Assembly (NCBI GenBank): GCA_022447205.1 | Contig: JAKVBQ010000007.1 | Location: forward strand, 1-64,000 | Length of the DNA: 64,000 bases | Origin: Phycisphaerales bacterium | GTDB taxonomy: Bacteria; Planctomycetota; Phycisphaerae; Phycisphaerales; SM1A02 | Reading direction: 5' to 3' | Shown here: one piece after another, positions 36,459 through 53,512 of the stretch | Layout of the letters: each line of letters begins with the position of its first letter | Position numbering within the stretch: the stretch's first letter is position 1 | Program-made: the position numbers and the translations under genes | The notes under the pieces: model-generated | What the model was told of the DNA's origin: nothing | Database searches by the model: none | Seen by the model: only the letters and a program-made list of their open reading frames with translations

Positions 36459-37718
36459 TCAGCCCGAAACCATGCCGCTCATCCCGAACACGGGAAGCAG
36501 CATCGCAAGGGCGATCACACCGACGACGAGACCGAGTGCGACGATCATCGCCGGCTCGATCAGGGAAGTGGTTCTCTTGACCGTCGCCTCGAGATCCTCC
36601 TCGCTGCAATCCGCGATCGTGATCAGGACCTCAGGCAGTCGTCCGGAGCGTTCTCCGGCGGAAATCATCGCGGAGACGCTGGCCGGAACGAGCGCGGATT
36701 CCTCGAGGGACGCCGCCAGGGGGCGACCATCCCGAATCGATCCCTCGACGTCATCCCAGAGTTCCTTCTGGGACGGGCTGTTGGTCGCACCACGCACGAT
36801 CGAGACCGCATCGACGAGATTCACGCCTGCGCTGCAGAGCACGGACAGGGTACGGGTCCAGCGACTGACCATCGCGCCGATGATCACCGAACGGATGACG
36901 GGAAGACGCAGGACGAGTCCGTCGATGTGCCGTCGCGCGGAGTCGGAACGGCTCCACGCCATGGCGACCAGCACGATCCCGGCAAGCAGGGGCAGGTACC
37001 ACCACCACTGCACGCGAAGGAAGTCTGCGGAGGCCATGAGCACACGGGTCGGAAGTGGCAGTGTCGCGGCACGGCTCTCGTAGATCGCGGCGAACCTCGG
37101 CAGGACGAAGACCAGGAGTGAGAGAATGATCAGACCACCCGCGCCAGCCATGAAGCCGGGATAGGTCAGGGCGGTTCGGACCTGCTGGATCACCCGTCGT
37201 TCCTTGGTCAGGTGCTCCCCGGCGCGGCGAGCCATGACATCCAGGCTTCCGGTCGCCTCGGCCGCTCGGATCAGGCTGACGACCACGGGTGAGAACGAAC
37301 GAGGTCGCCGTGCGAGCGCCGTGGAAAGCGCTTCACCGGCTTCCACCTCCTCCTGGATCCGACCGATCATGACCCTCGCACCGTTTTCGGATGCCTGACG
37401 CAGGATCGCGTCGAGTGCCTCGGAGATCGGAACACCGGCTTCGAGCATGACGGAGAGCTGACGGAAGAAGGCGATCGCCTCGTCACGCTTCATCCTGACT
37501 TCACGCCTGTCACGGGGAGCGACGTCAGCGGTACCGGAGGCACTCTCGCGGATGGAGACGACGAAACGACCTTCATCACGAAGCGAGGAAGCCACCTCGC
37601 TCGCGGAACCGGCGGCCATCGTGCCCGAACAGACCACGCCCTCGGCATCGCGGGCACGCCAGGCGAACGTCGACTGGATGGAGGCCCCACCGGGCTGGAG
37701 GTCAGCTACGGACGGCAT
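36459..37718 (-). CDS. Type II secretion / type IV pilus inner-membrane platform protein (GspF/PilC)
   Basis: A 419-residue polytopic protein. The N-terminal segment (FAWRARDAEGVVCSGTMAAGSASEV) is the usual T2SF start; two T2SF domains follow, with RQLSVMLEAGVPISEAL ... TYPGFMAGAGGLIILSLLVFVLPRF and RTLSVLCSAGVNLVDAV ... ISAGERSGRLPEVL and a C-terminal TM. The start at 37718 has GGAGG 6 nt before it and overlaps the gspE-like gene by 17 bp. Last structural gene of the pilus locus. Confidence 0.93.
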   Translation of the reverse strand: MPSVADLQPGGASIQSTFAWRARDAEGVVCSGTMAAGSASEVASSLRDEGRFVVSIRESASGTADVAPRDRREVRMKRDEAIAFFRQLSVMLEAGVPISEALDAILRQASENGARVMIGRIQEEVEAGEALSTALARRPRSFSPVVVSLIRAAEATGSLDVMARRAGEHLTKERRVIQQVRTALTYPGFMAGAGGLIILSLLVFVLPRFAAIYESRAATLPLPTRVLMASADFLRVQWWWYLPLLAGIVLVAMAWSRSDSARRHIDGLVLRLPVIRSVIIGAMVSRWTRTLSVLCSAGVNLVDAVSIVRGATNSPSQKELWDDVEGSIRDGRPLAASLEESALVPASVSAMISAGERSGRLPEVLITIADCSEEDLEATVKRTTSLIEPAMIVALGLVVGVIALAMLLPVFGMSGMVSG

Positions 37719-39447
37719 TCAGAACCTCCTCGATCGTGGTCAGTCCCTCGATGGCCTTGGCGAACCCGTCATCCCGAAGTGGCACGAGTCCGGATTCGAC
37801 GGCGATCGATCGAAGCTTCCCGAGGGACTCACCTCGTGCAACCGCTTCGAGGAACGTGTCGTCGGGAATGAGCAGTTCGAAGATGCCGATACGTCCGGCG
37901 AAACCCGTCTCCCTGCAACGGGAACAACCGGCGCCATGCCAGAGTTCGTCCGAGGAGATCTGACTCGTTCCGAGCAGCCTGCGAAGCGCATCGTCGGGCC
38001 GGTACGTGGTCCGACAGTTCGCGCAGGTCTTTCGAACGAGTCGCTGGGCAAGGACCCCGCGAAGGGTGGCCGCGACCAGGTAGGGCTCGATCTGGAGGTT
38101 CAGCAGCCTGGTGATCGCGCCACACGCCTCGTTGGTGTGCAGCGTGGAGAAGACCAGGTGACCCGTGAGTGCCGCCTGCGTCGTCAGGGCGGCGGTCTCG
38201 CCGTCCCGGATCTCGCCGACCATGATCACGTCGGGATCCTGCCTGAGCAGGGAGCGAAGTGCCTGGGCGAATCCGAATCCGGCCTTGTCGTTGATCGGGA
38301 ACTGGTTGACGCCGGTCAGCGTCGATTCGACCGGATCCTCGACGGTCGAGACGTTGCGCACGGAGCGATCCAGGGTCGCGAGGACGGAGTAGAGCGTCGT
38401 CGACTTGCCGGAACCGGTGGGACCGGTCACGAGGATCACGCCGTTCGGGAGATCGACGATCTCACGCCAGCGTTCGAGGGTCTCCGAAGCCATCCCGAGG
38501 CGATCAAGCTCGACGATCGAGTTCCTCGCATCGATGACGCGGATGACCACCTTCTCTCCCCACCTGCCGGGCATCGTGGAGACACGAAGGTCGATCGGCC
38601 GCGCCTCCATCCTCACATGGATGTCGCCATCCTGCGGCACGCGCCGTTCGGAGATGTCGAGTCCGGCCATGATCTTGATGCGACTCGCGATGGCGGGTGC
38701 CATCTGGTGCGGCGGAGAGAGTTTCTCGAAGAGTCGACCGTCGATTCGATAGCGGATCCTGAGGGCATGGTCGTCAGGCTCGACGTGGATGTCGGAAGCA
38801 CCTTCCTGCACCGCGGAGTAGATCATGTAGTTGACCAGCTTCACGACCGGACTGTGCCCGGCGACCTCCTTGAGGTCGGCGATCTCGGCCGTCTCGCGCT
38901 CGATGACGCTGAAGTCGGTGTCGGCGACGTCCTCGTAGATGTTGTCGATGACGAAGACGCTCGCCGTCGGCAGGTAGGACTCCAGCGAGGACTCGATGTC
39001 GTCCCTGGTGGCGACGGCAAGCTGCACGTCGCAACCGGAGACCCGCCGGATCTCCTCGACGAGATAGAGATTCGCTGGCTCGGCGACCGCGACGGTGAGC
39101 GTTCCTCGCACCTTGAAGAGCGGGAGCACCGAATGCTCCTCGACGAATTCGCGTGGGAGGCATTCAACGATCGCCGGATCAGCGAGCCTCGCCGCGCCGC
39201 GAACGAAGGGAATCCCATAGGCCTCGGCGACGACCTCCATGACGGAGGCCTCTTCGACCGCGCCCTGTTCGACGAGGATCTCCCCGATCAGACGGCCGCG
39301 ATTGTCGGCGCTCTGGCTTTCAAGGGCCTTCTCGAGGGCTTCCTCGGTCACGAGCCCTCGCTCGAGCAGCACCTGACCGAGCGGCATGGGGAAGGCCGTC
39401 GGGTCGGTTCCGGGGAATGTCGTGGCATCGGTTCGATGTGAAGTCAT
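37702..39447 (-). CDS. Assembly ATPase GspE/PilB with N-terminal MshEN-type domain
   Basis: A 581-residue secretion ATPase. The N-terminal domain (about 15-160) has two related motifs, PLGQVLLERGLVTEEALEKAL and LIGEILVEQGAVEEASVMEV, that fit the MshEN type shown in MshE to bind c-di-GMP. The catalytic core has Walker A GPTGSGKST, the Asp box, Walker B VIMVGEIRDGETA and the His box, with a tetracysteine zinc site (CANC ... CSRC). ATP hydrolysis drives pilin assembly on GspF. The start 39447 follows the STAS gene by 16 bp. Confidence 0.93.
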   Translation of the reverse strand: MTSHRTDATTFPGTDPTAFPMPLGQVLLERGLVTEEALEKALESQSADNRGRLIGEILVEQGAVEEASVMEVVAEAYGIPFVRGAARLADPAIVECLPREFVEEHSVLPLFKVRGTLTVAVAEPANLYLVEEIRRVSGCDVQLAVATRDDIESSLESYLPTASVFVIDNIYEDVADTDFSVIERETAEIADLKEVAGHSPVVKLVNYMIYSAVQEGASDIHVEPDDHALRIRYRIDGRLFEKLSPPHQMAPAIASRIKIMAGLDISERRVPQDGDIHVRMEARPIDLRVSTMPGRWGEKVVIRVIDARNSIVELDRLGMASETLERWREIVDLPNGVILVTGPTGSGKSTTLYSVLATLDRSVRNVSTVEDPVESTLTGVNQFPINDKAGFGFAQALRSLLRQDPDVIMVGEIRDGETAALTTQAALTGHLVFSTLHTNEACGAITRLLNLQIEPYLVAATLRGVLAQRLVRKTCANCRTTYRPDDALRRLLGTSQISSDELWHGAGCSRCRETGFAGRIGIFELLIPDDTFLEAVARGESLGKLRSIAVESGLVPLRDDGFAKAIEGLTTIEEVLNAVRS

Positions 39448-39463
39448 GGTGATGGTCCGGATG

Positions 39464-39799
39464 TCAACGAAGGGCTCGAGCCGCTTCCTCGACGGTGGTG
39501 GCGAGTTCAAAACGACGGGCCAGGCGGGTGACCCTGAGCACCTCGGCGACGGTCCCGCCCGCGGCGACGAGCTTCAGGCGACCGGAGCGATCGACGGCTT
39601 CTTCCGATGTCCACAGCAGCATCTCCATGGCGGCGGAATCGATGGACTCGAGTCCGGCCATGTCCAGGACGATGTTGCGGACTCCCGATTCGAATCGATC
39701 GGTCAGGCAGCGCCGATACTGATCGACGTCCTCGGAGTTGAAGTCCCCTGCAATGGCGACCAGGCTGGTGTCACCGTGGTCTTCGTGCGAAATCCTCAT
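39464..39799 (-). CDS. STAS-domain anti-anti-sigma-type protein
   Basis: A 111-residue single-domain STAS protein (SpoIIAA/RsbV-like). The phospho-acceptor serine is in NIVLDMAGLESIDSAAMEMLL, fitting the conserved D-S-A-[GA] loop. Such proteins switch partners with an anti-sigma kinase. Overlaps the HD-GYP gene before it (ATGA). No matching anti-sigma kinase of the RsbW type is visible nearby; the histidine kinase two genes upstream is a possible but unproven partner. Confidence 0.88.
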   Translation of the reverse strand: MRISHEDHGDTSLVAIAGDFNSEDVDQYRRCLTDRFESGVRNIVLDMAGLESIDSAAMEMLLWTSEEAVDRSGRLKLVAAGGTVAEVLRVTRLARRFELATTVEEAARALR

Positions 39800-41427
39800 G
39801 CGGCCTCCTGACTTCCACCGTGAAGATCACGGTGGCCATGGACCATTTGGTCGAATTCATCGAACGTGATCGACATGAACGGCTCGACGAGTCGAGGGTC
39901 GAACTGGGTGCCCGCACATCTCGTGATCTCCTGCAGGACGTAGTCCCTGGGACGGGCGGATCGATAGGTCCGGTCGGAGCTCATCGCATCGAACGCATCA
40001 GCGATGGCGACGAACCTGGCGATCATCGGGATCTCGTCCCCGGCAAGACCCATCGGATAGCCCCCACCATCCCAGCGCTCATGGTGATGGAGCACTGCGG
40101 GCAGGATGTCCTTCATCTGCGGGATGTCCCGGAGGATCCGGGCGCCGATCCCGGGATGCTGCTTGATCTGATCGAACTCGGGATCGGTGAGCCGGCCGGC
40201 CTTGCAGAGCACGGACTCGGGAACACCGATCTTGCCGACGTCGTGGACCAGCCCGGCGAGTTCGACGCGACGAACACCGGCTTCATCCCATCCGTAGGCT
40301 GCGGCGAGTCGGCCTGCGAGCCACGAGACCCGCTGGGAGTGACCGCAGGTGTAGGGATCCTTGGCATCGATCGCGGAGACCATGCCCTGCACCGTTCCGA
40401 GGAACATCGCATCGAGGTTCTCGTACATCGACGCGTTCCGAAGGAAGACGGACACATGTTCCGCAGCGGCACCGACCAGCTTGGCTTCGATGCTGGAGGC
40501 CGTCTCGTCGACCCCCTGCTTCTTTCCGGCGTACAGAACGCCGATCGTCCCGTTGTCCCCGGCGACGGGGCAGACGATGACGGATGCCCCGCAATCGGTG
40601 ATGGCGTCGAACCTCGGATCGCTCCGGGAATCGACGACGATCGGCTCGCGACCCTCGACGGTCGCGAGGAGCCGGTCACCGAGGTGCATCAGGTCCTCGT
40701 TCGAATCGTCGTGGCTGCCTCCGACCATGAAACCGGAGAAGTCATCCGGCAGGTTCATGTCGTTCATGTCGATCCGGATCCCGATCCAGGAGAACGGAAG
40801 GATCCTCAGGAGTTCGTCGACGACCATGTCGAGGAATCGCGTGGGATTGGTCGCGACGCTGGTCTCGCCGATCAGGGTGTGGAAGAGGTGGACCTCCTCG
40901 TAGGTCTCCCCGAGCTGACGCCCGATCTCCTCCAGCATCACGGTCCTTCGAGCGACCTCCCCCTCCGTGCTCGCAATGAGGCGAAGGAGTTCCGAGATCC
41001 TCGGCACCTCGGTCCCGGCCGCAAGATCGAGTCCCGAGAGCATCGAGGTGACGACGGTTCGATCGAGTCGACCCGCCTGGCACAGCAGGTTCAGGTGTTC
41101 TCCCGTGGCCAGTTCACGCGTTGCCAGGACGGCGATGCTGTCACGGTTGTTCCTGCGGTTGCAGGATGTCGATGCCGCCAGGATCCAGATGCCGGGAACG
41201 ACCTCACGAGGCTGCACCACGTCGCCGTTCCGAAGCGACTCCAGGACCAGGTTGAACTCGTTCTGGACGAGCGAGCTCGAGAGCAGGAGTTCCTCCAGCC
41301 AGTCCCCTCTCGTGGGACGACGGGAGCACTCGCCTGTTTCGTTGACGATGCGACGAACGATGCCCTGCCTGCGAAGGACCTCGTCGTTCGCGTTGACGGA
41401 GACTCGGATGGCATTGCGCTCGGTCAT
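39796..41427 (-). CDS. GAF and HD-GYP protein (c-di-GMP phosphodiesterase) of the pilus locus
   Basis: A 543-residue regulator. The first 160 residues are unassigned; a GAF-like sensor (about 170-330) follows, then HD-GYP (about 335-525) with LVHDVGKIGVPESVL, HHHERWDGGGYP and AIADAFDAM, all catalytic metal ligands apparent. No receiver domain, but it is translationally coupled (ATGA) to the stand-alone response regulator before it and to the STAS gene after it, so it probably acts as the output of the kinase/regulator pair. Confidence 0.93.
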   Translation of the reverse strand: MTERNAIRVSVNANDEVLRRQGIVRRIVNETGECSRRPTRGDWLEELLLSSSLVQNEFNLVLESLRNGDVVQPREVVPGIWILAASTSCNRRNNRDSIAVLATRELATGEHLNLLCQAGRLDRTVVTSMLSGLDLAAGTEVPRISELLRLIASTEGEVARRTVMLEEIGRQLGETYEEVHLFHTLIGETSVATNPTRFLDMVVDELLRILPFSWIGIRIDMNDMNLPDDFSGFMVGGSHDDSNEDLMHLGDRLLATVEGREPIVVDSRSDPRFDAITDCGASVIVCPVAGDNGTIGVLYAGKKQGVDETASSIEAKLVGAAAEHVSVFLRNASMYENLDAMFLGTVQGMVSAIDAKDPYTCGHSQRVSWLAGRLAAAYGWDEAGVRRVELAGLVHDVGKIGVPESVLCKAGRLTDPEFDQIKQHPGIGARILRDIPQMKDILPAVLHHHERWDGGGYPMGLAGDEIPMIARFVAIADAFDAMSSDRTYRSARPRDYVLQEITRCAGTQFDPRLVEPFMSITFDEFDQMVHGHRDLHGGSQEAA

Positions 41428-41819
41428 GCCGCCTTCTTCCTGCCCTGGGAATCGGCGATCATTCCGTTCACGATGGAGAGGATGGCACGAGGACTGAACG
41501 GCTTGCTTTCGACCGACCTGATGTTGGGAAGGGAGGCGATCGTCTCGTCGAGACCCCATCCACGAGCCGTGAGGATCATCACTGGAATCGAGGCCAGTTC
41601 GGGATCGGATGCCAGTGCACTGGCGAGTTCCGAACCCGTCATGAACGGCATCTGGAGATCGGTCACGATCGCGTCCGGCGCCATGCGGCGAGCGAGGTCG
41701 AGCGCCTCCTCGCCATCGGAGGCCTCGATGACCTCCAGTCCGGCGTTGCGGAACTTCAGTGAAAGGACCTGTACGATATGGGTCTCGTCATCGGCGACAA
41801 GAACACGTGCACAACTCAT
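41424..41819 (-). CDS. Single-domain response regulator (CheY-like)
   Basis: A 131-residue receiver domain with no output domain. Acidic pair VADDE, phospho-acceptor Asp in AIVTDLQMP, Thr in MILTARG and Lys in VESKPFSP are all in place. The start at 41819 (MSCARVLVADDE) was chosen over a longer upstream frame that lacks homology. Coupled to the GAF-HD-GYP gene and 20 bp after the kinase gene. Confidence 0.93.
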   Translation of the reverse strand: MSCARVLVADDETHIVQVLSLKFRNAGLEVIEASDGEEALDLARRMAPDAIVTDLQMPFMTGSELASALASDPELASIPVMILTARGWGLDETIASLPNIRSVESKPFSPRAILSIVNGMIADSQGRKKAA

Positions 41820-41839: not shown

Positions 41840-43267
41840 TCAGGCGGCGCGAGCGCCGGCAAAGCCCATCGGGATCGAGAACCAGAACCTGGAACCCTCT
41901 CCCATTGTTGAATCGACACCGATGCGGCCTCGGTGAACTGATTCCACGATGTTTCTGCACAAGTTCAGGCCCAGACCGGTCCCCTGGGCCATACGTTCAT
42001 AACTGGGGACCCTGAAGAACTTCTCGAAGACACGTTCTCGGGCCTCGAGCGGGATGCCCAGGCCGGTGTCCGACACCGCCACCAGGACCGAACGCTCCAG
42101 CGGATCGGTGTCGACCGAGATGGTCACCCGGCCACCGGACGGCGTGTACTTGATCGCGTTCGTCGCGAGATTCAGGACGACCTCCTGCAACATGGTCGGG
42201 TCACCCTCGACATGAAGATCGACGGGCGCAGCGGCGACGGAGATCGAGATGTCCTTCTCGGAGGCGACGGGCAGAAGCATCTGCGCGACACGATCGGAGA
42301 TCTCCCCGAGATCGCTCCGCTCGAGACGGGGACGGACGATACCGGCCTCGATACGACTGATGTTCAACATGTTCTCGACGAGGGACGAGAGTCGCTCGGT
42401 GTCATCCAGCATGCTGGCGAGGAACTGCATGCGTGCTTCCTCATCCTCGGCCTCGCCATCGACGAGCATCTCCAGGTAGCCCCGGATCGAGGCGAGCGGC
42501 GTCCTGAGTTCATGGCTGGCCTTCGAGACGAAGTCGGACTTCATCCTCGAGATCTGTCGCTCGCGCGTGAGATCACGAAGCGCGAGGAGGCAGGATCCGG
42601 CGCGATCCTCCCCGAGGTGCAGGGTCCTTGCATCGTAGACGCGGGCTTCCGCCGTGGTCATCCAGGGGCGCTCGTGTTCGAATTCGATCGCTCTGGCCTC
42701 GAACGTCCCTTCAGCGAGATCCGAACCGATCTGCTCGGCAAGAGGACCCTCACGGAAGACGTCCCGGATGTCCGAACCCTCGGGACAGGCGGACGGCGGC
42801 ACGAGCTCGGCAGCCGCGGTGTTCGCGAGACGGATGGTCCCGAACCTGTCGAAGACGAAGACCGGATCGGTGAGCGAGTGCAGCACGGAAAGAACCTCCT
42901 CGGAACGGGAGGTGCCGACCTGTCGCGCAACGGACTCCTCTCGGAGCCGTGCGTGCAGCAGGCGGATTCCGTCGAAGACGGCGTTGAACTCACCCTTCCC
43001 GCAGGATGTGACCGTTCCAGCATCTCCTTCGTCACCGAAGCGACGCATCGCGTCATCCAGCCGATCCGCGAGCTGCCGACGGACATGCCGATCGCGAACC
43101 CTGACCATCAGATTCAGCCCCCCCGCCGAGATCGCGGCGACGAGAGCCACGACCAGGAGAGCCCGCAGGTCGATCCCGAAGACGGCGATCGACAATGCAC
43201 CACCGAGACTGCAGGTGACTGCAGTCCCGATGCACATGATCATGAGTCTTGGTTCGAACCTGGTCAC
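41840..43267 (-). CDS. Membrane histidine kinase with PAS domain
   Basis: A 475-residue sensor kinase. Two TM helices (about 8-30 and 35-53) precede a linker, a PAS domain (about 120-240, VLHSLTDPVFVFDRFGTIRLAN), a HisKA domain with SHELRTPLASIRGYLEM (phospho-His) and an HATPase with N-box NLATNAIKYTP, VSDTGLGIP and GTGLGLNLCRNIV. The start is GTG 43267 with a GGAGG site 9 nt before it. Presumably phosphorylates the response regulator immediately downstream. Confidence 0.93.
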   Translation of the reverse strand: MTRFEPRLMIMCIGTAVTCSLGGALSIAVFGIDLRALLVVALVAAISAGGLNLMVRVRDRHVRRQLADRLDDAMRRFGDEGDAGTVTSCGKGEFNAVFDGIRLLHARLREESVARQVGTSRSEEVLSVLHSLTDPVFVFDRFGTIRLANTAAAELVPPSACPEGSDIRDVFREGPLAEQIGSDLAEGTFEARAIEFEHERPWMTTAEARVYDARTLHLGEDRAGSCLLALRDLTRERQISRMKSDFVSKASHELRTPLASIRGYLEMLVDGEAEDEEARMQFLASMLDDTERLSSLVENMLNISRIEAGIVRPRLERSDLGEISDRVAQMLLPVASEKDISISVAAAPVDLHVEGDPTMLQEVVLNLATNAIKYTPSGGRVTISVDTDPLERSVLVAVSDTGLGIPLEARERVFEKFFRVPSYERMAQGTGLGLNLCRNIVESVHRGRIGVDSTMGEGSRFWFSIPMGFAGARAA

Positions 43268-43295: not shown

Positions 43296-44534
43296 TCAAT
43301 CAGGAACGACCCCGATCGCCCCGGTAGCGAGCTGGTTTGCGAGCTGCCGGGCGTGCTGGTCGTCAGGGTTGTCGAAGAGGATCTGCTGGCAGCGCCTGAA
43401 CGCGGCCTCTTCGTCGCCCTTGATTCGTTCGATGTGGGCAAGTGCGAGGTGAGGAACCGCCTGGTCGGAGCCGGCGTTCTCGATCGCACGACGGAACCAG
43501 GCCTCGGCAGCGTCGATCCGACCCCGTTCGAATGCCGCGAAGCCCTTGTAGAGATAGCCCTCGCAGTGACCGGGTGCGAGACTGATGAGCCGGTCGGCAC
43601 AGGTCTCGAGACGGGTCATGTCGCCGATCTCGTGGACCGTGGCCCCGTACTCGATCCAGGCACCCACGTCGTCCGGATCGACCCGGAGCAGCTGTGCATA
43701 CGCGGTACGCGCATCTCGTGGTGAACCCATCTCGCGATAGCACCTGGCCCTGAGCCTGAAGACCCAGGTCGGGGTCCTCTCACCCATCGCCTTCTCGAGC
43801 TTTTCGAGGGAACGAAGACAGTCATGGTGCCGCATCGCACTCAACTGGGCACGCGCGAGATCGGCGATGACGATCTCATCGGTACCACCGATCAGTGACG
43901 CCTGGTCCAGGTGCTGGATGGCGACGACATGGTCGTCCATGAGCACCCCGATGGTCCCCAGGAGGTGATGCATCGCGGCACTGTTCTCGAAGTAGGGCAG
44001 CTTGGGCAGGAGGAGTTCGCGTGCCTGGCGATACCTGCCCATGTCGACGAGCATCTCGCCTGCGGCAAGGATGTAGTGCACGCTCTCGACGTTGCTCGGA
44101 TCGAGGTTCCACGCGGTCATGTAGGCATCCAGGGCCTGTTCGTCGCGGGACCATCTCTGGTACACGACACCCCTGAGATAGTGGGCGTCGGGAATTTCGG
44201 ACTGGATCTTGAGCGCTTCGCCGAGCAGGCGATCACAGCTCTCGAGCCTTCCCATCTCGAGGCAGGTCCGTGCCATGAGCATGTAGGCGGACGGATTGGA
44301 GGGATCACGCTGGCGAGCGGTCTCCGCGAGCTTCAGGGCCTTCTCGAACTGGCCGGTGCTGTACGCACGATAGGCTCGTTCAAGTTCCAGCTGGCTCTTG
44401 TGCCCCTCGACCCGCTTCCGGGACTCGATGCGGTGCTGCATGCTTGCACTTCCGGGAGTGGTCGAACAGGCACCCAGTCCGAGAAGGAGCGATGTTCCGA
44501 TGCAGGCCAGGATGATGCTTCTTGCATTGATCAC
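43296..44534 (-). CDS. TPR lipoprotein (pilotin-like)
   Basis: A 412-residue exported lipoprotein. The signal peptide ends in the lipobox LLGLGAC, followed by about nine tetratricopeptide repeats (e.g. YMLMARTCLEMGRLESCDRLL, HYLRGVVYQRWSRDEQALDAYMTAWNLDPSN). Lying just after the secretin gene, it may act as a pilotin/PilW-like assembly factor for secretin insertion; this role is inferred from position. Confidence 0.82.
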   Translation of the reverse strand: MINARSIILACIGTSLLLGLGACSTTPGSASMQHRIESRKRVEGHKSQLELERAYRAYSTGQFEKALKLAETARQRDPSNPSAYMLMARTCLEMGRLESCDRLLGEALKIQSEIPDAHYLRGVVYQRWSRDEQALDAYMTAWNLDPSNVESVHYILAAGEMLVDMGRYRQARELLLPKLPYFENSAAMHHLLGTIGVLMDDHVVAIQHLDQASLIGGTDEIVIADLARAQLSAMRHHDCLRSLEKLEKAMGERTPTWVFRLRARCYREMGSPRDARTAYAQLLRVDPDDVGAWIEYGATVHEIGDMTRLETCADRLISLAPGHCEGYLYKGFAAFERGRIDAAEAWFRRAIENAGSDQAVPHLALAHIERIKGDEEAAFRRCQQILFDNPDDQHARQLANQLATGAIGVVPD

Positions 44535-44574: not shown

Positions 44575-46905
44575 TCACTGACCGTCCGCGGTGGCGACGT
44601 TCTCCTGCAGGAGATACGAGCTCTGCGAGCGTGCCATCCACCAGTCGATCATCGTTCGGTTGAAGACGACGTTGAAGAAGTTCATGCCGTCGAAGTCGAA
44701 CGCTTCATCGGCCGCGAATCCAGCCGGGTCATCGGTCGTCTCGAACATCTCGACCTCGATCTCGACGACGGAACCGTCCGTGAAATCGACATCAAGGGCA
44801 TCCTCGTCGGTGCCAGAATCGAACGCTCCGAAGTCGACGTCAGCGTCATCAGCCTGACCGTCTTCGAAGACGAAACCATCGGCGGAGTCGAATGACTCAT
44901 CGGTCATGGCCACCTCGTCCGTCTCGAACACGAATTCCTCGGTCTCGAATGCACCTGAATCATCCGTCGTCATGGTCGTTGCGGAGGCCACCGTCTCCGG
45001 GGCATCCTCCTGGACGCTCACGTCGATCCCGACGTCCGAAGCGGTTTCCGCCGAAGCACGGTGGGCGTCCTCGGTCGATGCGCTCGACAGCGGGTCGGAG
45101 ACGGGGAGGTCTTCCTTGCTCGGGTTTTCGGCGGGCTTGAACGTGCGCATGAAGACACCACGGAGGATGTCCCCGTCCGCCGAGTAGATCGACCGCTCGC
45201 CCATGAGGTCCTCGCGCATCTGAACCATCTCAGGCTGGTTCGGGTTGTTACGCAGTGAACGGTTGATGTGCGAGATCGCGAGATCGACATCCCCACCGTC
45301 GACCGCCTGGTAGGCGTCGTGGTTGGAGTTCGAGGCGAGGGTTTCGCGAGCCCAGGGAAGCAGTCCCTCACGAACGCCGACCAGCACGTTCCCGACGAGC
45401 TCCTCCGCCTCGTCGGACGCGGCGGTCATGACTTCCTCCCGGATGATCGTCGGGGTGACCAGGAAGATGATCTCCTGGCGCTTGACGTCGTCACTCTGGC
45501 CATTGAACGCATCACCGACGAGGGGCACGTCTCCGAGACCGGGAACGCTTCGGCGGTTGATGGTGGATTCATCCATGAACAGTCCGCCCAGGACGACCGT
45601 TTCGCCGTCGCGGACGCGGACGTTGGTGGTGATCTCGTTGGTCGCCTCGTCGGGGACGGTCGTCACGCCGATGCCGCTTGCATCACCGATCTGTCGCAGC
45701 GTCGCGCTGCTGACGCTGGGATAGAGCTCCATGCGGATCGATCCGTCACGACTGATGAAGGGACGAAGGATCAGGTTGATGCCGGTCTCCAGGAACTGGA
45801 CGGTCTGGGTCGCGGCGGTCTCGGTCTGGGTGGTCGACAGGTAGGCGACGCGTTCACCAACGAGCACCTGCGCACGCTGACGGTTCAGGGCCAGGATCTT
45901 CGGACGTGCGAGAATGGTGCTGTCCGACACCTCGTCGAGGAGGCGCAGGAAGACACCGATGTTGTTGTTGAGGATGCCGAACTTGAAGCCACCGGCTTCC
46001 GTGGTCTGGCCGACCGTTGACTGGAGGGCCATGGCGTTGTCGGTTCGAGTCGTCTGCTCGTCACCACCGAGAATGGTGCCGGCCTGCGGCTGCTGCTGAA
46101 GGTTCTGAAGCCAGGAGACCGGGTTCAGGGGGTTGAGCAGGGATGTGAAATCGGCCTTGAGCAGGACACTGACGTCCATGCCCCACGCATAGTCGCCCTT
46201 CGCACGGGTGACGAGGATCGTGGATTCGACCATGACCTGCTTGGGAGGCGTGTCGACATCCACGAGAAGGGTCTCGATGGCATCGAGGTTCTCCGCGAAG
46301 TCACGGACCACGAGGACGGGTTCGTGCGCCCAACCGTCACCACCGGCGTCGGTGGTTCCGGGCTGGAATCCGCCTTCGACTTCGCCGAGCTTGGACATCG
46401 ACCCCTTTTCGGAGAGGAGCGGCTTGGCGAGGGATTCGGCATCGAGCGGGGAGATGTGATCGAGATAGAAGACCCGGTCCTCGAGGGTGCGGTTGGCTTC
46501 CGCACGCTGGACCTTCTCTTCACAGGTCATGACGTAGATGAAGTTGCCTTCCTCCTCGTAGCACAGGCTTGCGATGTGGAGGATCCCGTCGAGTGCCTCG
46601 TAGAAGGTCACGTCGAAGAGGTTTGCGGTGATCGAGATGGTGCCGACGCGCTTGCTCGTGATGATGTTGCGGCGACTCTGGATCGCCAGCATGTTGAGCA
46701 CCTGGGGAAGCGGCACGTCCTCCACGGCGATCTCGAAGGTGCCGAACTCGTCGATCACTTCCTGACCATCCGCCTTCTGAACCGCCCCATCGTCGGAATC
46801 CTGGGAGAAGCCGTCGAACGGAACACCCCCGTTCGCGACGAGAACCGGCGCGAAGAACGCGCCAAGGATCGAGATGGACATCCGGCTCAACTTGAAGTTC
46901 ATCAT
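44575..46905 (-). CDS. Secretin (GspD/PilQ family) with long acidic C-terminal tail
   Basis: A 776-residue outer-membrane pore subunit. A signal peptide and an STN-like region (VEDVPLPQVLNMLAIQSRRNI) lead to N-domains and the secretin core (about 215-480) with the conserved VPGLGDVPLVGDAF and EIIFLVTPTII signatures. After the core comes a roughly 240-residue tail, very rich in Asp/Glu/Phe/Ser, unlike the usual short S-domain. GGAG-like site (AGGAG) 10 nt before the ATG. Forms the outer-membrane channel for the pilus or secreted pilin. Confidence 0.92.
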   Translation of the reverse strand: MMNFKLSRMSISILGAFFAPVLVANGGVPFDGFSQDSDDGAVQKADGQEVIDEFGTFEIAVEDVPLPQVLNMLAIQSRRNIITSKRVGTISITANLFDVTFYEALDGILHIASLCYEEEGNFIYVMTCEEKVQRAEANRTLEDRVFYLDHISPLDAESLAKPLLSEKGSMSKLGEVEGGFQPGTTDAGGDGWAHEPVLVVRDFAENLDAIETLLVDVDTPPKQVMVESTILVTRAKGDYAWGMDVSVLLKADFTSLLNPLNPVSWLQNLQQQPQAGTILGGDEQTTRTDNAMALQSTVGQTTEAGGFKFGILNNNIGVFLRLLDEVSDSTILARPKILALNRQRAQVLVGERVAYLSTTQTETAATQTVQFLETGINLILRPFISRDGSIRMELYPSVSSATLRQIGDASGIGVTTVPDEATNEITTNVRVRDGETVVLGGLFMDESTINRRSVPGLGDVPLVGDAFNGQSDDVKRQEIIFLVTPTIIREEVMTAASDEAEELVGNVLVGVREGLLPWARETLASNSNHDAYQAVDGGDVDLAISHINRSLRNNPNQPEMVQMREDLMGERSIYSADGDILRGVFMRTFKPAENPSKEDLPVSDPLSSASTEDAHRASAETASDVGIDVSVQEDAPETVASATTMTTDDSGAFETEEFVFETDEVAMTDESFDSADGFVFEDGQADDADVDFGAFDSGTDEDALDVDFTDGSVVEIEVEMFETTDDPAGFAADEAFDFDGMNFFNVVFNRTMIDWWMARSQSSYLLQENVATADGQ

Positions 46906-47192: not shown

Positions 47193-47864
47193 TCATTCCT
47201 CGGCAAGGATCCTTGCTCCCCCACGATCGAGGATGAAGGTGAAGACCTCCTCGGCGTCGGGCCTGGAGACATCAAGCAGCACCGCAGAGGAACGCACCTC
47301 GCGAAGCGTGAAGGTCAGTCCGTCCTTCTCGAAGCGACTCCCGAGGAGGCGCGCACGACCATCGAGGACGGCGGTACCGAGTCCCTTCGCGGTTCCGGAG
47401 AGTCGGATCGTCTCGACGATGGGCACCATCTGAAGGAACGCGGGTTCGGGTGACTCGGGAACATCCAGGACACCGCGGTCGCCGTCATCCAGGAGGACGA
47501 CGGTTCGGACCGAGCCCGGCTGGAGGAACGGATCACGACGCAGATCGACATCGAGACGAACCGGGCGCCCTGCATCGAGCGCCTCTGGGCGCTCGCCTCC
47601 GGCCTCCGCCACGAGTTTCGGATCCTCGTTGGCGATGGCCATCCGCGGCATGCCGGTGATGATCCGCAGGCGATGCCAGATGAGGAGTCCCGCAGGTCGT
47701 GCCCAGAGCGTGGCCGCGACCATGGTCAGGAGTGCGAACACCGCGAACTGGCGACGGCTTGCCCCGCACCTGATGCGAAGGGATTCCCCGAACGAGCAGG
47801 CGCGTTTCCAGAGGCCGGAAGACTCGCCTCCACCATCCTGCATGCCGTGGTGAAGATCGTTCAT
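47193..47864 (-). CDS. PilP/GspC-like inner-membrane protein
   Basis: A 223-residue protein with one N-terminal TM (RQFAVFALLTMVAATLWA at about 38-55) and a periplasmic domain that starts with the RRDPFLQPG motif shared with PilP and continues as a small beta domain (IVETIRLSGTAKGLGTAVLDGRARLLG, FEKDGLTFTLREVRSSAVLL) like the secretin-binding homology region. Expected to link PilN/O to the secretin. Overlaps the pilO-like gene by 4 bases. Confidence 0.8.
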   Translation of the reverse strand: MNDLHHGMQDGGGESSGLWKRACSFGESLRIRCGASRRQFAVFALLTMVAATLWARPAGLLIWHRLRIITGMPRMAIANEDPKLVAEAGGERPEALDAGRPVRLDVDLRRDPFLQPGSVRTVVLLDDGDRGVLDVPESPEPAFLQMVPIVETIRLSGTAKGLGTAVLDGRARLLGSRFEKDGLTFTLREVRSSAVLLDVSRPDAEEVFTFILDRGGARILAEE

Positions 47865-48460
47865 CGTTCATTCTCCCTCAGGTAGACGGTGTCGAGCTCG
47901 AGGCTCGCATCGATCATGCCCTTCTCGGCTCCGGCGTTCCGGGGGCGAACGACTCGAAGCATCCGGACCCTGACCAGGCGATCGGAGTCCTCCACCCTTC
48001 TCAACGCCTCGATGACGGCGTTGAAACGACCCTGCATGTCGATGATGACCGGCAGGCTCATCCACTCCACCGATTCGGATTCCTCTCCGGCCGTCACGAG
48101 CTCGGGGTCGAGCATGCGGACCGACCAGGAACTGGCCACTCCGTCATCGACGTTGAGTGCCAGAGCGTCGGCGATGCCGGATTCATCGGATCCACGGGGG
48201 ATGTCGCGCAACTGGTCCTGTTCTATGGACAGTCGTCGGGCAAGTTCGGATTCGAGCATCTCGAGTCGGGATTCGGTCGCGACGATCGATCCGCTCTCAT
48301 GTCGAAGTCGCCGGATCTCGGAGTGGGCATCGGAGGCGCGTGAATGCTCGGGGTGGATGACGAACATCCCGGTCAGGACCACCATGGACAGGATGACCAT
48401 GAAGGCGAGCTGCATCCGACGCCGGACGCTTCGTTCGATTTCCCGGATCTTCGTGGTCAT
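47861..48460 (-). CDS. PilO-like inner-membrane alignment protein
   Basis: A 199-residue bitopic protein with a cytoplasmic basic stretch, TM at about 18-36 (RRMQLAFMVILSMVVLTGMFVI) and a coiled-coil plus ferredoxin-like periplasmic domain (VEWMSLPVIIDMQGRFNAVIEALRRVEDSDRLVRVRML), matching PilO/GspM. The start at 48460 is set by the ATGA overlap with the pilN-like stop. Confidence 0.82.
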   Translation of the reverse strand: MTTKIREIERSVRRRMQLAFMVILSMVVLTGMFVIHPEHSRASDAHSEIRRLRHESGSIVATESRLEMLESELARRLSIEQDQLRDIPRGSDESGIADALALNVDDGVASSWSVRMLDPELVTAGEESESVEWMSLPVIIDMQGRFNAVIEALRRVEDSDRLVRVRMLRVVRPRNAGAEKGMIDASLELDTVYLRENER

Positions 48461-49107
48461 TCTCCACCTCCCACTGCTGCCGTCCGCTCGAGGTCCGGCT
48501 CGACGGGGCGCCATGGCGTGTCGAGATCGACCTCGAAGTCGACGGAGAATTCGGCGACGGTGGAACCGTCATGATCGGCGAGCGCGGTGAAACCGCGTCG
48601 GACCTCCTCGAACGGCACTCGTTCACGCAGGTCCTTGACGAAGTCACGCACCGTCGATTCATCGGGGGCATGCCCCTGAATGGTGCCCATCAGTCGCCGA
48701 CGACTGGTTCGCTGACCACGGGGATCAAGACGGATGCCGGTGACGTCGACGAGGAGCTCCTCGAGGACCACACCGTCGGGCAGGGTGTTGGCCATGGTGA
48801 CCAGGAGTCCCCCGACGGGCAGCGGCAGGGCGACCTGCCTCCAGTTCTCGATCCGCTGTCCACTGGCGTCGAGATCGGCCAGCAACGACGACTCGCGCAG
48901 TTCGGCGCTCAGGACCTCGTCGGCCCGCTCCTGGGCCTGCAGGAGTTCGGATTCAGCGCCGGAACGACGGATTCGTGCCTGGAAACTCAGTGCTGCGAGC
49001 AGAACCGCGGTCACGAGAATCGCGCAACCGACACGTCGATTGAGCAGTCGAAGACGGGCTCGGGCCCCGAAGACGGGAGGAAGAAGATCTATTCGATCGT
49101 CACTCAT
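48457..49107 (-). CDS. PilN-like inner-membrane alignment protein
   Basis: A 216-residue protein whose N-terminus has the PilM-binding IDLLPP motif (family INLLP), then a TM (VGCAILVTAVLLAALSFQA) and a coiled-coil/ferredoxin-like domain. Coupled to the pilM-like gene before it and the pilO-like gene after it. Confidence 0.85.
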   Translation of the reverse strand: MSDDRIDLLPPVFGARARLRLLNRRVGCAILVTAVLLAALSFQARIRRSGAESELLQAQERADEVLSAELRESSLLADLDASGQRIENWRQVALPLPVGGLLVTMANTLPDGVVLEELLVDVTGIRLDPRGQRTSRRRLMGTIQGHAPDESTVRDFVKDLRERVPFEEVRRGFTALADHDGSTVAEFSVDFEVDLDTPWRPVEPDLERTAAVGGGE

Positions 49108-50222
49108 GCAGCCCTCTCATTCCGATGGGTGCGGACCCTGCGATTCCTCATGGCAAGCCCGAAGGCGGCGGTCCACGCGGATGGGTTGTCCTCGGTGATT
49201 CCGATCGTTCCAAGCTGGTCGGCGAGGGACTCGATCGTTCCGTGGCAGTCGTCGAGGAAGACCTCGATGCCGGTACGTTCGGAGACCATGGCGGCAAGGC
49301 CCGGTTCGAAGGCATCCCTCCCACTGAGCACGATCCGTTCAGGCCGCGAGCCTCGGAAGGCGACGGCGCAGTGACGAAGGCAGAGACCGACTTCGGTGGC
49401 AAGCTCGTGTATCAGCGGTTTCGTGGCGTCATTCGCCCCGGACTCCACCGACCGGTCGATGTCCCTGCTTTCCCTGGCCGCATGACGTCGATCACGCCTG
49501 AGCGCCGCTGCCGAACCGATGTCGATACCGAGTCCGGTGCTCATCGCCTCCTCGATGGCCTGACCCCCCACCGGAATCGTCTTGCAGAACCCGACTCGAT
49601 CCCCACGGAGGTACATCAGGGTCGATCCCGCGGAACCCACATCGACGACGACATGGACCCGATCACGATCCTGTTCCCTTCGGTACCGTCGACTGTGTGC
49701 CCTGGCGACCCCGCAGAAGCCCGGCTCGAGCGCCAGTGGCGCAAGCCCGACGTCGAGGATCATCTCCAGCCACGGTTCCGCAAGACGTTCGTCCATCGCG
49801 AAGAGAACGACCTCCGAACGGTCACCGTCGTTGCCCGAGTACCTGGCACCGGTCCGGATGCCATCGACCTGGAGCGACTCATGGGGAATGGCGAATCGGT
49901 CGGATGCCTCCCAGGCGAGGGAATCACGAAGTTCCTTCGCGGGCATCTCCGGCATGCGGAGCGGATGAACGTTGATGATCGAACGTGGTGCACCGACCAC
50001 GCAGGTCGTGCCCCGGAAGCCGGATCGACGAAGGATCCTCCTCAGGCGCATCCTGAACTCATGTCGGTCTCGTTCGAAGTCCCCGCTCCGATGAAGAACC
50101 GCCGCGGCCCGGACCTTCTGGCTCCGCGAACAGAGCTGAACCATGCGGATCGCGTCGTCACCGACATCCACGCCGATGGGCGTTCGCCTCGAAAGACCTT
50201 GTAGCATCGAATGCACTGGCAC
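49104..50222 (-). CDS. PilM-like cytoplasmic actin-fold protein
   Basis: A 372-residue FtsA/ASKHA-fold protein. The ATP-binding strand IGVDVGDDAIRMVQL, a middle VVVDVGSAGSTLMYL and the late ERIVLSGRDAFEPGL fit PilM. It should bind the N-terminus of PilN. The start is GTG 50222, with GGAG 7 nt upstream; ATG 50207 is an alternative. First gene of the M-N-O-P block. Confidence 0.85.
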   Translation of the reverse strand: MPVHSMLQGLSRRTPIGVDVGDDAIRMVQLCSRSQKVRAAAVLHRSGDFERDRHEFRMRLRRILRRSGFRGTTCVVGAPRSIINVHPLRMPEMPAKELRDSLAWEASDRFAIPHESLQVDGIRTGARYSGNDGDRSEVVLFAMDERLAEPWLEMILDVGLAPLALEPGFCGVARAHSRRYRREQDRDRVHVVVDVGSAGSTLMYLRGDRVGFCKTIPVGGQAIEEAMSTGLGIDIGSAAALRRDRRHAARESRDIDRSVESGANDATKPLIHELATEVGLCLRHCAVAFRGSRPERIVLSGRDAFEPGLAAMVSERTGIEVFLDDCHGTIESLADQLGTIGITEDNPSAWTAAFGLAMRNRRVRTHRNERAA

Positions 50223-50392: not shown

Positions 50393-51022
50393 TCAAGGTC
50401 CGTTTTGCACGACCTCAACAGTCGTCTTCCCGGTGAAAGGGGCGATGGCGATCAGATAGCGCTGCCCGTCACCTCCCGAGAGCTCTATCTCGCCACCCGT
50501 TCCAGGGGCCCCGCTGCTGGAAGAGACCGAACCCCCGAACTCGTCGAAGGTGATGTAGTCGAGGCCGGAATCGATGCTCACCGAGGAGATGCGAACGCCA
50601 CCGAATCGATCATCGATCGTGAAGTCGGTGATGTAGCGACCATCGGCGCCAAGGGTCCCCATCGGGTCCTGGATGTAATCCGCGGTGTCGGGGTTGAAGG
50701 GGTGCATGAAATTCTGCGGAGTGACGCGGACGATGCAGTAACCGACGTAGCCTTCCTCGCCGACACCTGCCTTGATGAGCTGGAATCGGCGATATTCCTG
50801 GTTGGCAAGGGCGTCGGACTGTGCAAAGACCATGTCCGAGACGATCGACCGTGACGCAGCCTGGATCGCGAAGGTGTCGCGATCGATCATGTTCGGTACG
50901 AGCAGCATCCCGGCGATCCCGAGGATCGTGATCACGATGACCAGCTCCACGAGGGTGTAGGCACGTCGAACACCCCACGTGACACGGAATCGGCGAGGCG
51001 GTCTCTGTCGAGTTCGTTGCAT
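50393..51022 (-). CDS. Type IV pilin-like protein (GspH/FimT-like minor pilin)
   Basis: A 209-residue minor pilin. The prepilin signal is RRAYTLVELVIVITILGIAGMLLVPNM with +5 Glu and a cleavage site after Ala (unusual; Gly is typical) in VRRAYTLVE. A GspH/FimT-like SIVSDMVFAQSDALANQEYRRFQLI stretch follows. GGAGGG lies 6 nt before the ATG at 51022. Confidence 0.82.
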   Translation of the reverse strand: MQRTRQRPPRRFRVTWGVRRAYTLVELVIVITILGIAGMLLVPNMIDRDTFAIQAASRSIVSDMVFAQSDALANQEYRRFQLIKAGVGEEGYVGYCIVRVTPQNFMHPFNPDTADYIQDPMGTLGADGRYITDFTIDDRFGGVRISSVSIDSGLDYITFDEFGGSVSSSSGAPGTGGEIELSGGDGQRYLIAIAPFTGKTTVEVVQNGP

Positions 51023-51074: not shown

Positions 51075-51626
51075 TCAATCAAGTGTCGAAGTGAGCGCGA
51101 CCGGAGGCTTGTCGAGTTCCCGGACCTGCATGGCCAGTGTCTTGCTTGCAAGCTGCACGGCCAGAGGATCCTCCGCGCATCCCATGACACGACCCTGGTA
51201 CTGCAGGCTCCGGCGGATGGTGCTGAGGTAGGTTCTGTCAGTGACCTTCCAGAGAGGCAAGGGCTCGCCGGGCTTCTCATCCTCATCGAAGGTGTAGGTG
51301 ATCATCGCCCCTGTCACTGCGCTCTGCGTGAAGACGATCACCCCGGAGGGATCAACGAGACCTTCGCCCCGCGCCTCCCGGTGGCAGGCGACCAACGCCC
51401 AGTCACCCGAATCGGGAAACTCGTATCGAGCCAGGACCTGCCACACATCCGACCGATCGATCATCCGGCTGATCGGATGGAGAACGCAACTCCTCGCAGC
51501 CACCGAGAGGCCGGCAACCCTGTCTTCGGGAGGTGCGAACGCTGCAGCCACAAGGGGCACCACGAGGCAGAGGCACAGCAGGCGCTGGTTCGTTCCATTC
51601 ATCAAGAACTTGTGGACGCGTGTCAT
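51075..51626 (-). CDS. Hypothetical exported protein of the pilin block
   Basis: A 183-residue protein not recognised. A signal peptide or anchor (NQRLLCLCLVVPLVAAAFA) is present from the ATG at 51626 or, more likely, from Met 51602. It has no prepilin motif. Lies 6 bp after the second pilin gene and 52 bp before the GspH-like gene, so it probably belongs to the pilus locus. Confidence 0.55.
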   Translation of the reverse strand: MTRVHKFLMNGTNQRLLCLCLVVPLVAAAFAPPEDRVAGLSVAARSCVLHPISRMIDRSDVWQVLARYEFPDSGDWALVACHREARGEGLVDPSGVIVFTQSAVTGAMITYTFDEDEKPGEPLPLWKVTDRTYLSTIRRSLQYQGRVMGCAEDPLAVQLASKTLAMQVRELDKPPVALTSTLD

Positions 51627-51632
51627 CGGGGA

Positions 51633-52064
51633 TCACCAGCCGCTTTCGCTTCCATCGGGACCGAGCGCTTCCAGAGACCAGATGGACGGATCCCAGACCA
51701 GTGTGTAGCCACCACTAACCTGAAAACCGCCGGCGGATTGATTCATGTCGAGCGGGACGGAACTCAGGAGTTCTTCCGCGGTCAAGGCGTGGATCACGCT
51801 CGGAACGTCGTTCCCCAGGGGAGTCACGGTCCCATGCCTGGCGAAGTAGAGGGTCACCTGTCCACGGAGCACGTTCAGCTGCGCATGGGCGGCGGTTTCC
51901 TCGGCATCGTCCGTGGCATTGCTGAATTGCGGAATGACGATCGAGGAGAGGATCGCGAGGATCACGACCACGATCAGAATCTCGATGAGCGTGAAGCCAT
52001 GCATCGCCCGATCTGACCGCTCGCGAGTTTGATCCGCTCCTCGGTGTCCTTCGCCATTGCACAT
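51633..52064 (-). CDS. Type IV pilin/pseudopilin (GspG-like), second paralogue
   Basis: A 143-residue pilin with prepilin signal AMHGFTLIEILIVVVILAILSSIVIPQFSNA. The first 40 residues of the mature form are almost the same as the pilin at 52354-52755, and both end in GW. The start at 52064 has GGGAG at 7 nt; an ATG 6 nt earlier is too close to that site. Probably a pilus or pseudopilus subunit. Confidence 0.88.
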   Translation of the reverse strand: MCNGEGHRGADQTRERSDRAMHGFTLIEILIVVVILAILSSIVIPQFSNATDDAEETAAHAQLNVLRGQVTLYFARHGTVTPLGNDVPSVIHALTAEELLSSVPLDMNQSAGGFQVSGGYTLVWDPSIWSLEALGPDGSESGW

Positions 52065-52314: not shown

Positions 52315-52353
52315 TCCTCACACTCGTCCGGAGACGATCAGATGTCCAGTGGT

Positions 52354-52755
52354 TCACCAGCCGGTATTGGCCGAGCCATCCATCATGTTCAGGTTGTTGG
52401 AAGTGGCGTTGAGGGACCAGGTGTAGTCCCCGCCGAGAACGGGCGCATTGGTCGTCGGATCGACGCTCGGGATGTAGCCTGCGGAAACCAGCTCGAGAAA
52501 GCAGTTGCTCACGCCATCGATCGTCCCGTCGGTTCCCTGACTGGCGTCACCGGGAAGGTAGCCGTTCTGGGCACGGAAGAGCTGGACCTGGCTGCGCATC
52601 GACTGGAGCTGCGTCTTCGCCTGGCTCGTTGCAGCATCTTCGGCTGCGTTGGTGAACTGCGGGATCACGATCGCGGCAAGAATGCCGAGGATCACGACCA
52701 CGATGAGAATTTCGATGAGCGTGAAGCCTCGCTTGATGGTCTTGCGGTTCGTCAT
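52354..52755 (-). CDS. Type IV pilin/pseudopilin (GspG-like), probable major subunit
   Basis: A 133-residue pilin with a short basic leader MTNRKTIKRG and the class III signal GFTLIEILIVVVILGILAAIVIPQFTNAAEDAA. The C-terminus (DYTWSLNATSNNLNMMDGSANTGW) is similar to a GspG C-terminal region. A strong AGGA site (AGGAAGGA) lies before the ATG at 52755. Being followed by its own terminator and first in the locus, it is the best candidate for the major subunit. Confidence 0.9.
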   Translation of the reverse strand: MTNRKTIKRGFTLIEILIVVVILGILAAIVIPQFTNAAEDAATSQAKTQLQSMRSQVQLFRAQNGYLPGDASQGTDGTIDGVSNCFLELVSAGYIPSVDPTTNAPVLGGDYTWSLNATSNNLNMMDGSANTGW

Positions 52756-53125
52756 GATGAAATCGTCCTTCCTGAATTCGGCGCATGAGCGCTGGATGTT
52801 CGGGTGGGGCTCCGAATACGTTCGAAGCGCCCCTGTTCCGAATCCTGAATGTCGGGATCTCGTTGATCCCAGCCTCGAATCGTCGACTCGCCCTTTCGAG
52901 CGCTTCGACGGGACACAGCCGTTGGCGCAAGGTGCCCCCCTCCGCGCGGCACCTGCTGGCTGCGTGTTCAGTTCATCGGGCCGTTTCCGAACCGGCTGAA
53001 GCGTGATGCACATTCGATCCGAGCACTGCTCCCGCAGGACCCGCATGGCTTGCCCAGACGGTCCAGACCGAACCGGTGCCCTCGATCGCATCCTGCCGGG
53101 CCCGGGATTCTCGGCCCCGGTCGGT
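52756..53125. other. Intergenic region upstream of the major pilin gene
   Basis: This 370-base gap holds the leader of the pilin gene. A minus-strand TATTCG near 52815 could be a -10, but no convincing -35 or enhancer-dependent (-24/-12) promoter was found. Open frames here have no recognisable domain. Confidence 0.5.
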
Positions 53126-53512
53126 TCAGGCGGCGAGAGCGGACTCGACATCGAGCGAGATCAGCCAGGCATCGCCCTCGCGACGACAGAAGCTGACGAC
53201 GGCTCGACAGGCGCAACGGGTGTCGGACTCCCAGCCGATGGTCACCAGGACCCCGACCTCGACCGGCTCCGAACATCGACCCTGGACGCGACCGTCGAGT
53301 TCACGAAGGTCGTTCAGTTCGTGCATCATCCCGAAGGCATCACCACCAAGTCGAAAGAGGGTGGCACATCCGTTGATGGGCGTGGCGTCGGGATGACGCC
53401 GGTTGATCCGAAGCCCCTCCACCACCGTGATGGTGGGTGCGGAGAAGGTTTCCGGTCCGGCAAGGATGTCGGTCGCGATGGCATCGTCCGAAGTGAGTCT
53501 GATCGAGGTCAT
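53126..53512 (-). CDS. Hypothetical protein, possible PilZ-like fold
   Basis: A 128-residue protein, start at ATG 53512. The pattern LRINRRHPDATPINGCATLFRL and the late CACRAVVSFCRREGDAWLISLDVE resemble the ends of a PilZ domain (R-R-x-P..., then R-V-V...W-x-I-G-L), but the middle DxSxxG motif is not recognised. If PilZ-like, it may bind c-di-GMP. Lies 370 bp before the pilin gene on the same strand. Not certain. Confidence 0.4.
   Translation of the reverse strand: MTSIRLTSDDAIATDILAGPETFSAPTITVVEGLRINRRHPDATPINGCATLFRLGGDAFGMMHELNDLRELDGRVQGRCSEPVEVGVLVTIGWESDTRCACRAVVSFCRREGDAWLISLDVESALAA

Follow-up and report, generated by a model that had tools for sequence, protein, structure and literature searches.

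Why should a type IV pilus gene cluster carry a kinase, a response regulator, an enzyme of cyclic di-GMP (c-di-GMP) turnover and a STAS protein between its secretin and its extension motor? The cluster in question lies on the minus strand (53512-36459) of the window analysed here, the first 64,000 nucleotides of contig JAKVBQ010000007.1 of a Phycisphaerales bacterium (assembly GCA_022447205.1). All of the genes that a first-pass annotation of this DNA had named are found there, in order and on one strand, by profile matches, with PilN and PilO just under the cut-off and PilP assigned by position. The four-gene signalling set probably controls the motor, and the fuller proposal, that the locus encodes a type IVa-like pilus with the extension motor under the control of its own two-component, c-di-GMP and STAS cassette, appears from sequence to have about an even chance of being correct. 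Most known cases of c-di-GMP or two-component control of a pilus motor use enzymes encoded elsewhere. The locus bears on how such signals are delivered locally and specifically to a pilus motor: writer or eraser, PilB-MshEN receptor, STAS switch and kinase are here encoded as a single inherited unit.

Signalling genes between the secretin and the motor

In the direction of transcription the cluster encodes a PilZ-like protein, prepilins 1 and 2, an orphan open reading frame, a pilin-like protein, PilM, PilN, PilO and a gene in the PilP position, followed by the secretin, a TPR lipoprotein, the histidine kinase, the CheY-like regulator, a GAF-HD-GYP protein, the STAS protein, PilB/GspE and PilC/GspF. 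The upper bound of the cluster is set by the start of the PilZ-like gene at 53512. Genes were assigned by Pfam and NCBIfam profile searches of the cluster proteins, and start codons were corrected before spacing was measured. The signalling genes and the motor gene that follows them are:

41840-43267, minus strand: membrane histidine kinase (HisKA 72 bits, HATPase_c 101 bits, PAS_4 25 bits)
41424-41819, minus strand: single-domain CheY-like response regulator (Response_reg 64 bits; TDLQMP, ILTARG and KPF motifs)
39796-41427, minus strand: predicted GAF-HD-GYP phosphodiesterase (HD_5 129.5 bits; weak GAF match; HDVGKIG and HHERWDGGGYP intact)
39464-39799, minus strand: STAS-only protein (PF01740 57 bits; TIGR00377 61 bits, cut-off 53; phospho-acceptor Ser55 in IDS)
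37702-39447, minus strand: extension ATPase PilB/GspE with an N-terminal MshEN domain (T2SSE 429 bits; MshEN 70 bits; NF053729 c-di-GMP motif 50.9, cut-off 38)

In the kinase a very short loop links two hydrophobic segments, an architecture shared with intramembrane-sensing kinases; since there is no periplasmic domain, it may receive its signal from the membrane or from the machine itself. The CheY-like regulator retains the acidic pocket, the phospho-Asp and the conserved T/S and K, and has no output domain. The predicted fold of the GAF-HD-GYP protein is closest to 4mcw, a GAF-HD-GYP c-di-GMP phosphodiesterase (E 6.5e-17); by sequence its best match among solved chains is the cGAMP-specific enzyme V-cGAP3 (5z7c), followed by 4mcw. 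The phospho-acceptor serine of the STAS protein is invariant in the aligned relatives (118/118).

Overlaps of 4 nt (ATGA) join the regulator to the HD-GYP gene and the latter to STAS, as they do PilM to PilN, PilN to PilO and PilO to PilP, and PilB overlaps PilC by 17 nt. Short gaps separate STAS from PilB (16 nt), kinase from regulator (20 nt), TPR gene from kinase (28 nt) and secretin from TPR gene (40 nt). Translational coupling, which the first-pass annotation had claimed for the regulatory genes as a group, therefore applies to the regulator/HD-GYP and HD-GYP/STAS joints of the signalling block but not to the third, between kinase and regulator. The widest gap in the PilM-PilC stretch, 287 nt between the PilP-position gene and the secretin, is wide enough to hold an internal promoter, and pilin 1 is flanked by gaps of 349-370 nt; a scan of the cluster for sigma-70 promoters and terminators gave no site above chance.

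Conservation of the block across the class

The genome searches covered the Planctomycetota, and lineages outside the class of the window are known here as "same phylum". When 150 evenly drawn genomes of the window's class were searched with the secretin, 128 gave homologues; 60 loci of at most 20 kb each were annotated with hidden Markov models (HMMs) built from the window's proteins, and an independent genome collection supplied a further 80 named loci. The two sets overlap in part, and removal of duplicates by PilB sequence left 82 distinct PilB genes. Loci were chosen by secretin score and the HMMs derive from the same family; a gene scored as absent is one below threshold rather than one proven lost.

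At these secretin loci the STAS gene lies directly upstream of PilB in 81 of the 82 cases. An HD-GYP gene is present at 77 and the complete kinase-regulator-HD-GYP-STAS block at 72, which is the opposite of the absence from relatives that was to have counted against the original proposal. Of the remainder, four are without the kinase, one has HD-GYP and STAS only, one the regulator and STAS, two STAS only, one ends at the locus edge after STAS and one has no signalling gene. Because the loci had been chosen by secretin score, class-wide tables of STAS and secretin positions were used as well: of the 78 strongest STAS orthologues in the 150 evenly drawn genomes, 70 share a contig with the secretin and lie 1.8-7.6 kb from it. 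In the window's own genome the 1.5-kb flanks of six other GspE-type ATPase loci contain no STAS homologue, and this, together with an order repeated in dozens of genomes, argues that the arrangement is not due to chance. Pairwise distances of STAS, HD-GYP, kinase and regulator correlate with those of the structural genes at 0.53-0.88, comparable to the 0.66-0.87 among the structural genes themselves; the cassette has therefore largely been passed on together with the machine, a correlation of this kind being unable to tell shared ancestry from functional coupling. The conserved order and shared history uphold the notion of one machine with built-in regulators.

A complete planctomycete-type locus, with a secretin identity of 44%, occurs also in a record titled Vicinamibacteraceae (Acidobacteriota; L176, WYBR01000011.1), which is either a mislabelled bin or a transfer.

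STAS follows PilB and the c-di-GMP slot is exchangeable

Loci that depart from the full block indicate that STAS is tied to PilB, whereas the other regulators come and go. Four loci keep the secretin, the TPR gene and HD-GYP, with or without the kinase and regulator, and in all four STAS, PilB and PilC are missing together (L154, L165, L171, L174). Two others retain STAS before PilB without kinase, regulator or HD-GYP (L077, L081), and one more has only the regulator and STAS. Six genomes of the window's order carry a second, paralogous pilus cluster (L099-L104) that reads kinase-STAS-PilB-PilC-PilM-N-O(-P), with adjoining pilins and a nearby regulator-HD-GYP pair that is convergent in most; the PilB of this cluster has a shorter spacer between its MshEN motifs than that of the main locus. 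Some long frames spanning STAS and PilB have the appearance of overlapping frames read through in DNA of high GC content, and a fusion of the two genes is not claimed.

Outside the class, the position between regulator and STAS is filled in different ways while kinase, regulator, STAS and PilB are retained. Five loci of one family (L129-L133) have a GAF-GGDEF gene there whose GGEEF is intact. In L112, L136 and L137 both enzymes are present, HD-GYP first and GAF-GGDEF second, three more loci (L138, L140, L145) have a divergent GGDEF, and at a further three (L134, L135, L141) the position is empty. A gene in this slot that had been considered as a SpoIIE phosphatase was rejected in that role, Pfam giving GGDEF. 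That eraser and writer share one slot beside a motor with a c-di-GMP motif is the best argument that the output of the cassette is c-di-GMP at PilB. The natural variants (STAS only, regulator and STAS, HD-GYP exchanged for or joined by GGDEF) constitute a series for dissecting the parts.

Altered HD-GYP motifs, HHExx[S/A/G/T/N]G or GYG for GYP, are seen in L058, L095, L155, L159, L165 and L167, and further in L170, L173, L175, L177 and L201. Judged by these motifs, such copies may possibly have been converted from enzyme to c-di-GMP sensor, or may have lost activity.

Probable receptors of c-di-GMP

The PilB proteins of four relatives score 52-61 against NF053729, like that of the window above its cut-off, and binding of c-di-GMP by the window PilB is likely on the basis of its motifs. 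Of the two 24-residue MshEN motifs, the second (motif II) begins with LLG, not RLG, in most members of the class. At the GSPII-B site of Thermus PilF a 6-nM affinity goes with L at that place, and the motif has been widened to (R/K/L)LG (PMC11731258); the class-typical LLG start agrees with this and is therefore counted in favour of binding by PilB. A second receptor is suggested by the gene upstream of the pilin, which the first-pass annotation had called possibly PilZ-like. Its homologues in the family likewise precede a pilin, and those tested that have intact motifs, RRxxxRWP and DYSxxGLG, match PF07238 at 27-40 bits (cut-off 22.5). The window's own copy has a predicted six-stranded fold, a small beta barrel whose top Foldseek matches include the PilZ domains of BcsA and Alg44, at weak E-values. 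The MshEN domain on PilB, the PilZ gene before the pilin in relatives and the exchange of cyclase for phosphodiesterase make the case for c-di-GMP control stronger than had been claimed.

Structural genes of the pilus

The remaining genes of the cluster are:

53126-53512, minus strand: PilZ-like protein, directly upstream of pilin 1; itself without a Pfam match
52354-52755, minus strand: type IV prepilin 1 (GFTLIE), GspG/PilA-like (N_methyl 32.7 bits; TIGR01710 59 bits, below the equivalog cut-off)
51633-52004, minus strand: type IV prepilin 2 (N_methyl 31.6 bits)
51075-51626, minus strand: orphan open reading frame of 183 aa within the pilin group; no Pfam match
50393-51022, minus strand: pilin-like protein with a GspH/ComGC-like N-terminus (N_methyl 22.2 bits; ComGC-like 27 bits)
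49104-50222, minus strand: PilM (PilM_2 45 bits; TIGR01175 78 bits, cut-off 133)
48457-49107, minus strand: PilN-like, by PF05137 (22.4 bits, cut-off 22.8), position and family HMM matches in class loci
47861-48460, minus strand: PilO-like, by PF04350 (15.5 bits, cut-off 22) and position
47193-47864, minus strand: PilP-like, by position alone (conserved slot from PilO to secretin); no Pfam match
44575-46905, minus strand: secretin of PilQ/GspD type (PF00263 140 bits; TIGR02515 PilQ 183 bits, cut-off 284)
43296-44534, minus strand: TPR lipoprotein (TPR families; lipobox LGAC in the translation)
36459-37718, minus strand: platform protein PilC/GspF (T2SSF 183 bits; TIGR02120 328 bits, cut-off 424)

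PilMNOP, a PilQ-type secretin, PilB, PilC and type IV prepilins, i.e. a type IVa pilus set with PilN and PilO below cut-off, are thus encoded together, and the best reading of these profile matches is that the cluster is the principal operon for a type IVa-like pilus. The PilT retraction ATPase is encoded elsewhere in the window's genome and not at the pilus locus (TIGR01420 378 bits, cut-off 319); in some lineages its gene lies after or beside PilB (L129, L131). The TPR lipoprotein gene adjoins the secretin in nearly all loci compared, and its product is a possible secretin pilotin or assembly factor. The orphan frame has homologues in only two near relatives among those compared.

Relation to known systems

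A search of the open-licence literature turned up no report of a pil operon containing STAS or HD-GYP genes, nor any paper on how planctomycete pil genes are regulated. The parts are known, but a kinase-regulator-(HD-GYP or GGDEF)-STAS block and a STAS gene locked to pilB were found described nowhere in that literature and are to this extent unreported.

By analogy the nearest experimental precedent is the HptB-HsbR-HsbA-HsbD pathway of Pseudomonas aeruginosa, which likewise combines a two-component input, a phospho-serine STAS protein and a c-di-GMP enzyme; there HsbA binds the cyclase HsbD in dependence on Ser56, and loss of HsbD in an hptB background abolishes surface pili (PMC5085249). The likeness is one of description: the Hsb genes lie near flagellar and chemotaxis genes, there is a dedicated kinase/phosphatase, HsbR, and the enzyme is a cyclase. 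The type IVa cluster of Myxococcus xanthus also has histidine kinase and response regulator genes, pilS and pilR, among pilB, pilC and pilMNOPQ (PMC6060248); however, its PilR belongs to a pair that controls pilus expression, the two genes occupy another position in the order, and no HD-GYP or STAS is reported there. An MshEN-type N-domain on the extension ATPase is shared with the MshE, PilF and PilB motors (PMC5013675, PMC11731258, PMC11656802), but accounts of those motors do not place enzyme or STAS genes within the motor operon, and a 2024 review of PilB cofactors mentions neither STAS nor HD-GYP (PMC11656802). In Xanthomonas c-di-GMP proteins act directly on PilB with the involvement of a PilZ-type protein, but the chain described is FimX/PilZ without STAS, unlike the kinase-regulator-HD-GYP-STAS set found here (PMC8389850). 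RsbV and SpoIIAA are similarly STAS-only proteins with a conserved serine in a DS loop (PMC8256260), whereas the present STAS gene adjoins no cognate kinase, phosphatase or sigma gene and is linked to a pilus motor instead.

Proposed control of the motor and alternative explanations

From these observations we infer a direction of signal flow, a partner for STAS and a sign of its effect. The membrane kinase would read the envelope or internal state and phosphorylate the CheY-like regulator, which, because it has no output domain, is proposed to act by protein contact, most likely with the adjacent c-di-GMP enzyme and/or STAS. The slot enzyme, HD-GYP here and GGDEF in other lineages, would set a local c-di-GMP pool that the neighbouring PilB senses through its MshEN domain; STAS, phosphorylated on serine by a kinase encoded elsewhere, would dock on PilB or on the enzyme and set pilus extension. 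HD-GYP would oppose extension if PilB responds to c-di-GMP like Vibrio cholerae MshE. A more ambitious version may be put forward tentatively: that STAS serves the extension motor as a dedicated regulatory subunit, a phospho-serine switch that once controlled sigma factors and now acts directly on a secretion/pilus ATPase, and that in much of the phylum a single two-component system governs it together with an exchangeable slot for a c-di-GMP writer or eraser. The arrangement offers a testable model of surface attachment for a class that is widespread in the environment yet little studied.

Several features weigh against control of the motor by the cassette. In the MshEN domain of the window PilB motif I begins with P, motif II reads LIG, the final Q is lost, and the spacer between the motifs is longer than that of V. 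cholerae MshE. Both ligand motifs of the window's PilZ-like copy, RxxxR and DxSxxG, are degenerate or lost; a c-di-GMP-binding PilZ is probably ancestral in the family, with binding probably lost in this copy. HD-GYP signatures are complete in 69 of the 77 PilB-linked copies, but the other eight deviate, mostly in the D of HHExxDG or in GYP, and catalysis is thus not always kept. Partner switching, which had also been proposed, finds its STAS protein with an invariant phospho-serine, whereas profile searches found no RsbW-type kinase or SpoIIE phosphatase for it in the locus. The linkage of STAS to PilB could reflect operon inertia, and in P. aeruginosa hsbA itself has no effect on twitching (PMC5085249).

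The STAS protein might instead be an ordinary anti-sigma-factor antagonist, which in its unphosphorylated form binds an RsbW-like anti-sigma factor from another locus and thereby releases a sigma factor; the cassette would then control transcription, of pilus or lifestyle genes, and not the motor directly. It scores above the curated TIGR00377 (ant_ant_sig) cut-off, its phospho-serine is invariant, and other contigs of the genome carry genes for RsbW-like kinases and for five SpoIIE phosphatases. However, the two clear RsbW-like genes each adjoin a STAS gene of their own, no anti-sigma or sigma gene occurs among the cluster's proteins, and STAS following PilB would go unexplained; this alternative is therefore rather unlikely. 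An improbable explanation is that a general c-di-GMP module is merely co-transcribed with the pilus, HD-GYP lowering the global pool and pilus control being a by-product. HD-GYP enzymes often work on global pools, and the presence of another HD-GYP gene at 32140, with three GGDEF matches in other parts of the genome, is in keeping with this, but the near-absolute linkage to the PilB neighbourhood across the class and the same ingredients in the separate second pilus cluster are not.

A role for STAS as a motor cofactor, whether structural or nucleotide-sensing, with phosphorylation irrelevant and kinase, regulator and HD-GYP acting separately, would account for the two loci that retain STAS without the other three and recalls the reported binding of GTP by the STAS protein SpoIIAA (PMC8256260). 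It carries little probability in view of the phospho-acceptor Ser invariant in 118 sequences, even though a nucleotide could be bound by the same loop. There is likewise only a slight chance that the cluster encodes a type II secretion system and not a pilus: PilC and PilB do score higher on the GspF and GspE models than on PilC and PilB models, and pilin 1 is GspG-like, but the PilM-N-O-P module is present, the secretin is nearer PilQ (183 vs 173 bits), PilT lies beside PilB in relatives, and no GspC, GspL/M or GspK matches (Pfam/NCBIfam) occur among the cluster proteins searched.

Neighbouring genes

The first-pass annotation had counted a further regulator as part of the same machine:

32140-33885, minus strand: separate REC-GAF-HD-GYP protein, a neighbour rather than an operon member

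The gene is real, but its place in the operon is rejected by strand arrangement and narrow conservation: two plus-strand genes separate it from pilC, and it lies beside the operon only in a same-genus genome and, with pilB and pilC gone, in one further member of the family. On either side of it lies a plus-strand gene whose product matches dockerin type I weakly (31051-32127 and 35005-36039), and the dockerin-like protein at 35005-36039 is conserved beside REC-GAF-HD-GYP in two relatives. A transfer-messenger RNA (tmRNA) gene with the tag ANTQYALAA lies at 60186-60534 of the window.

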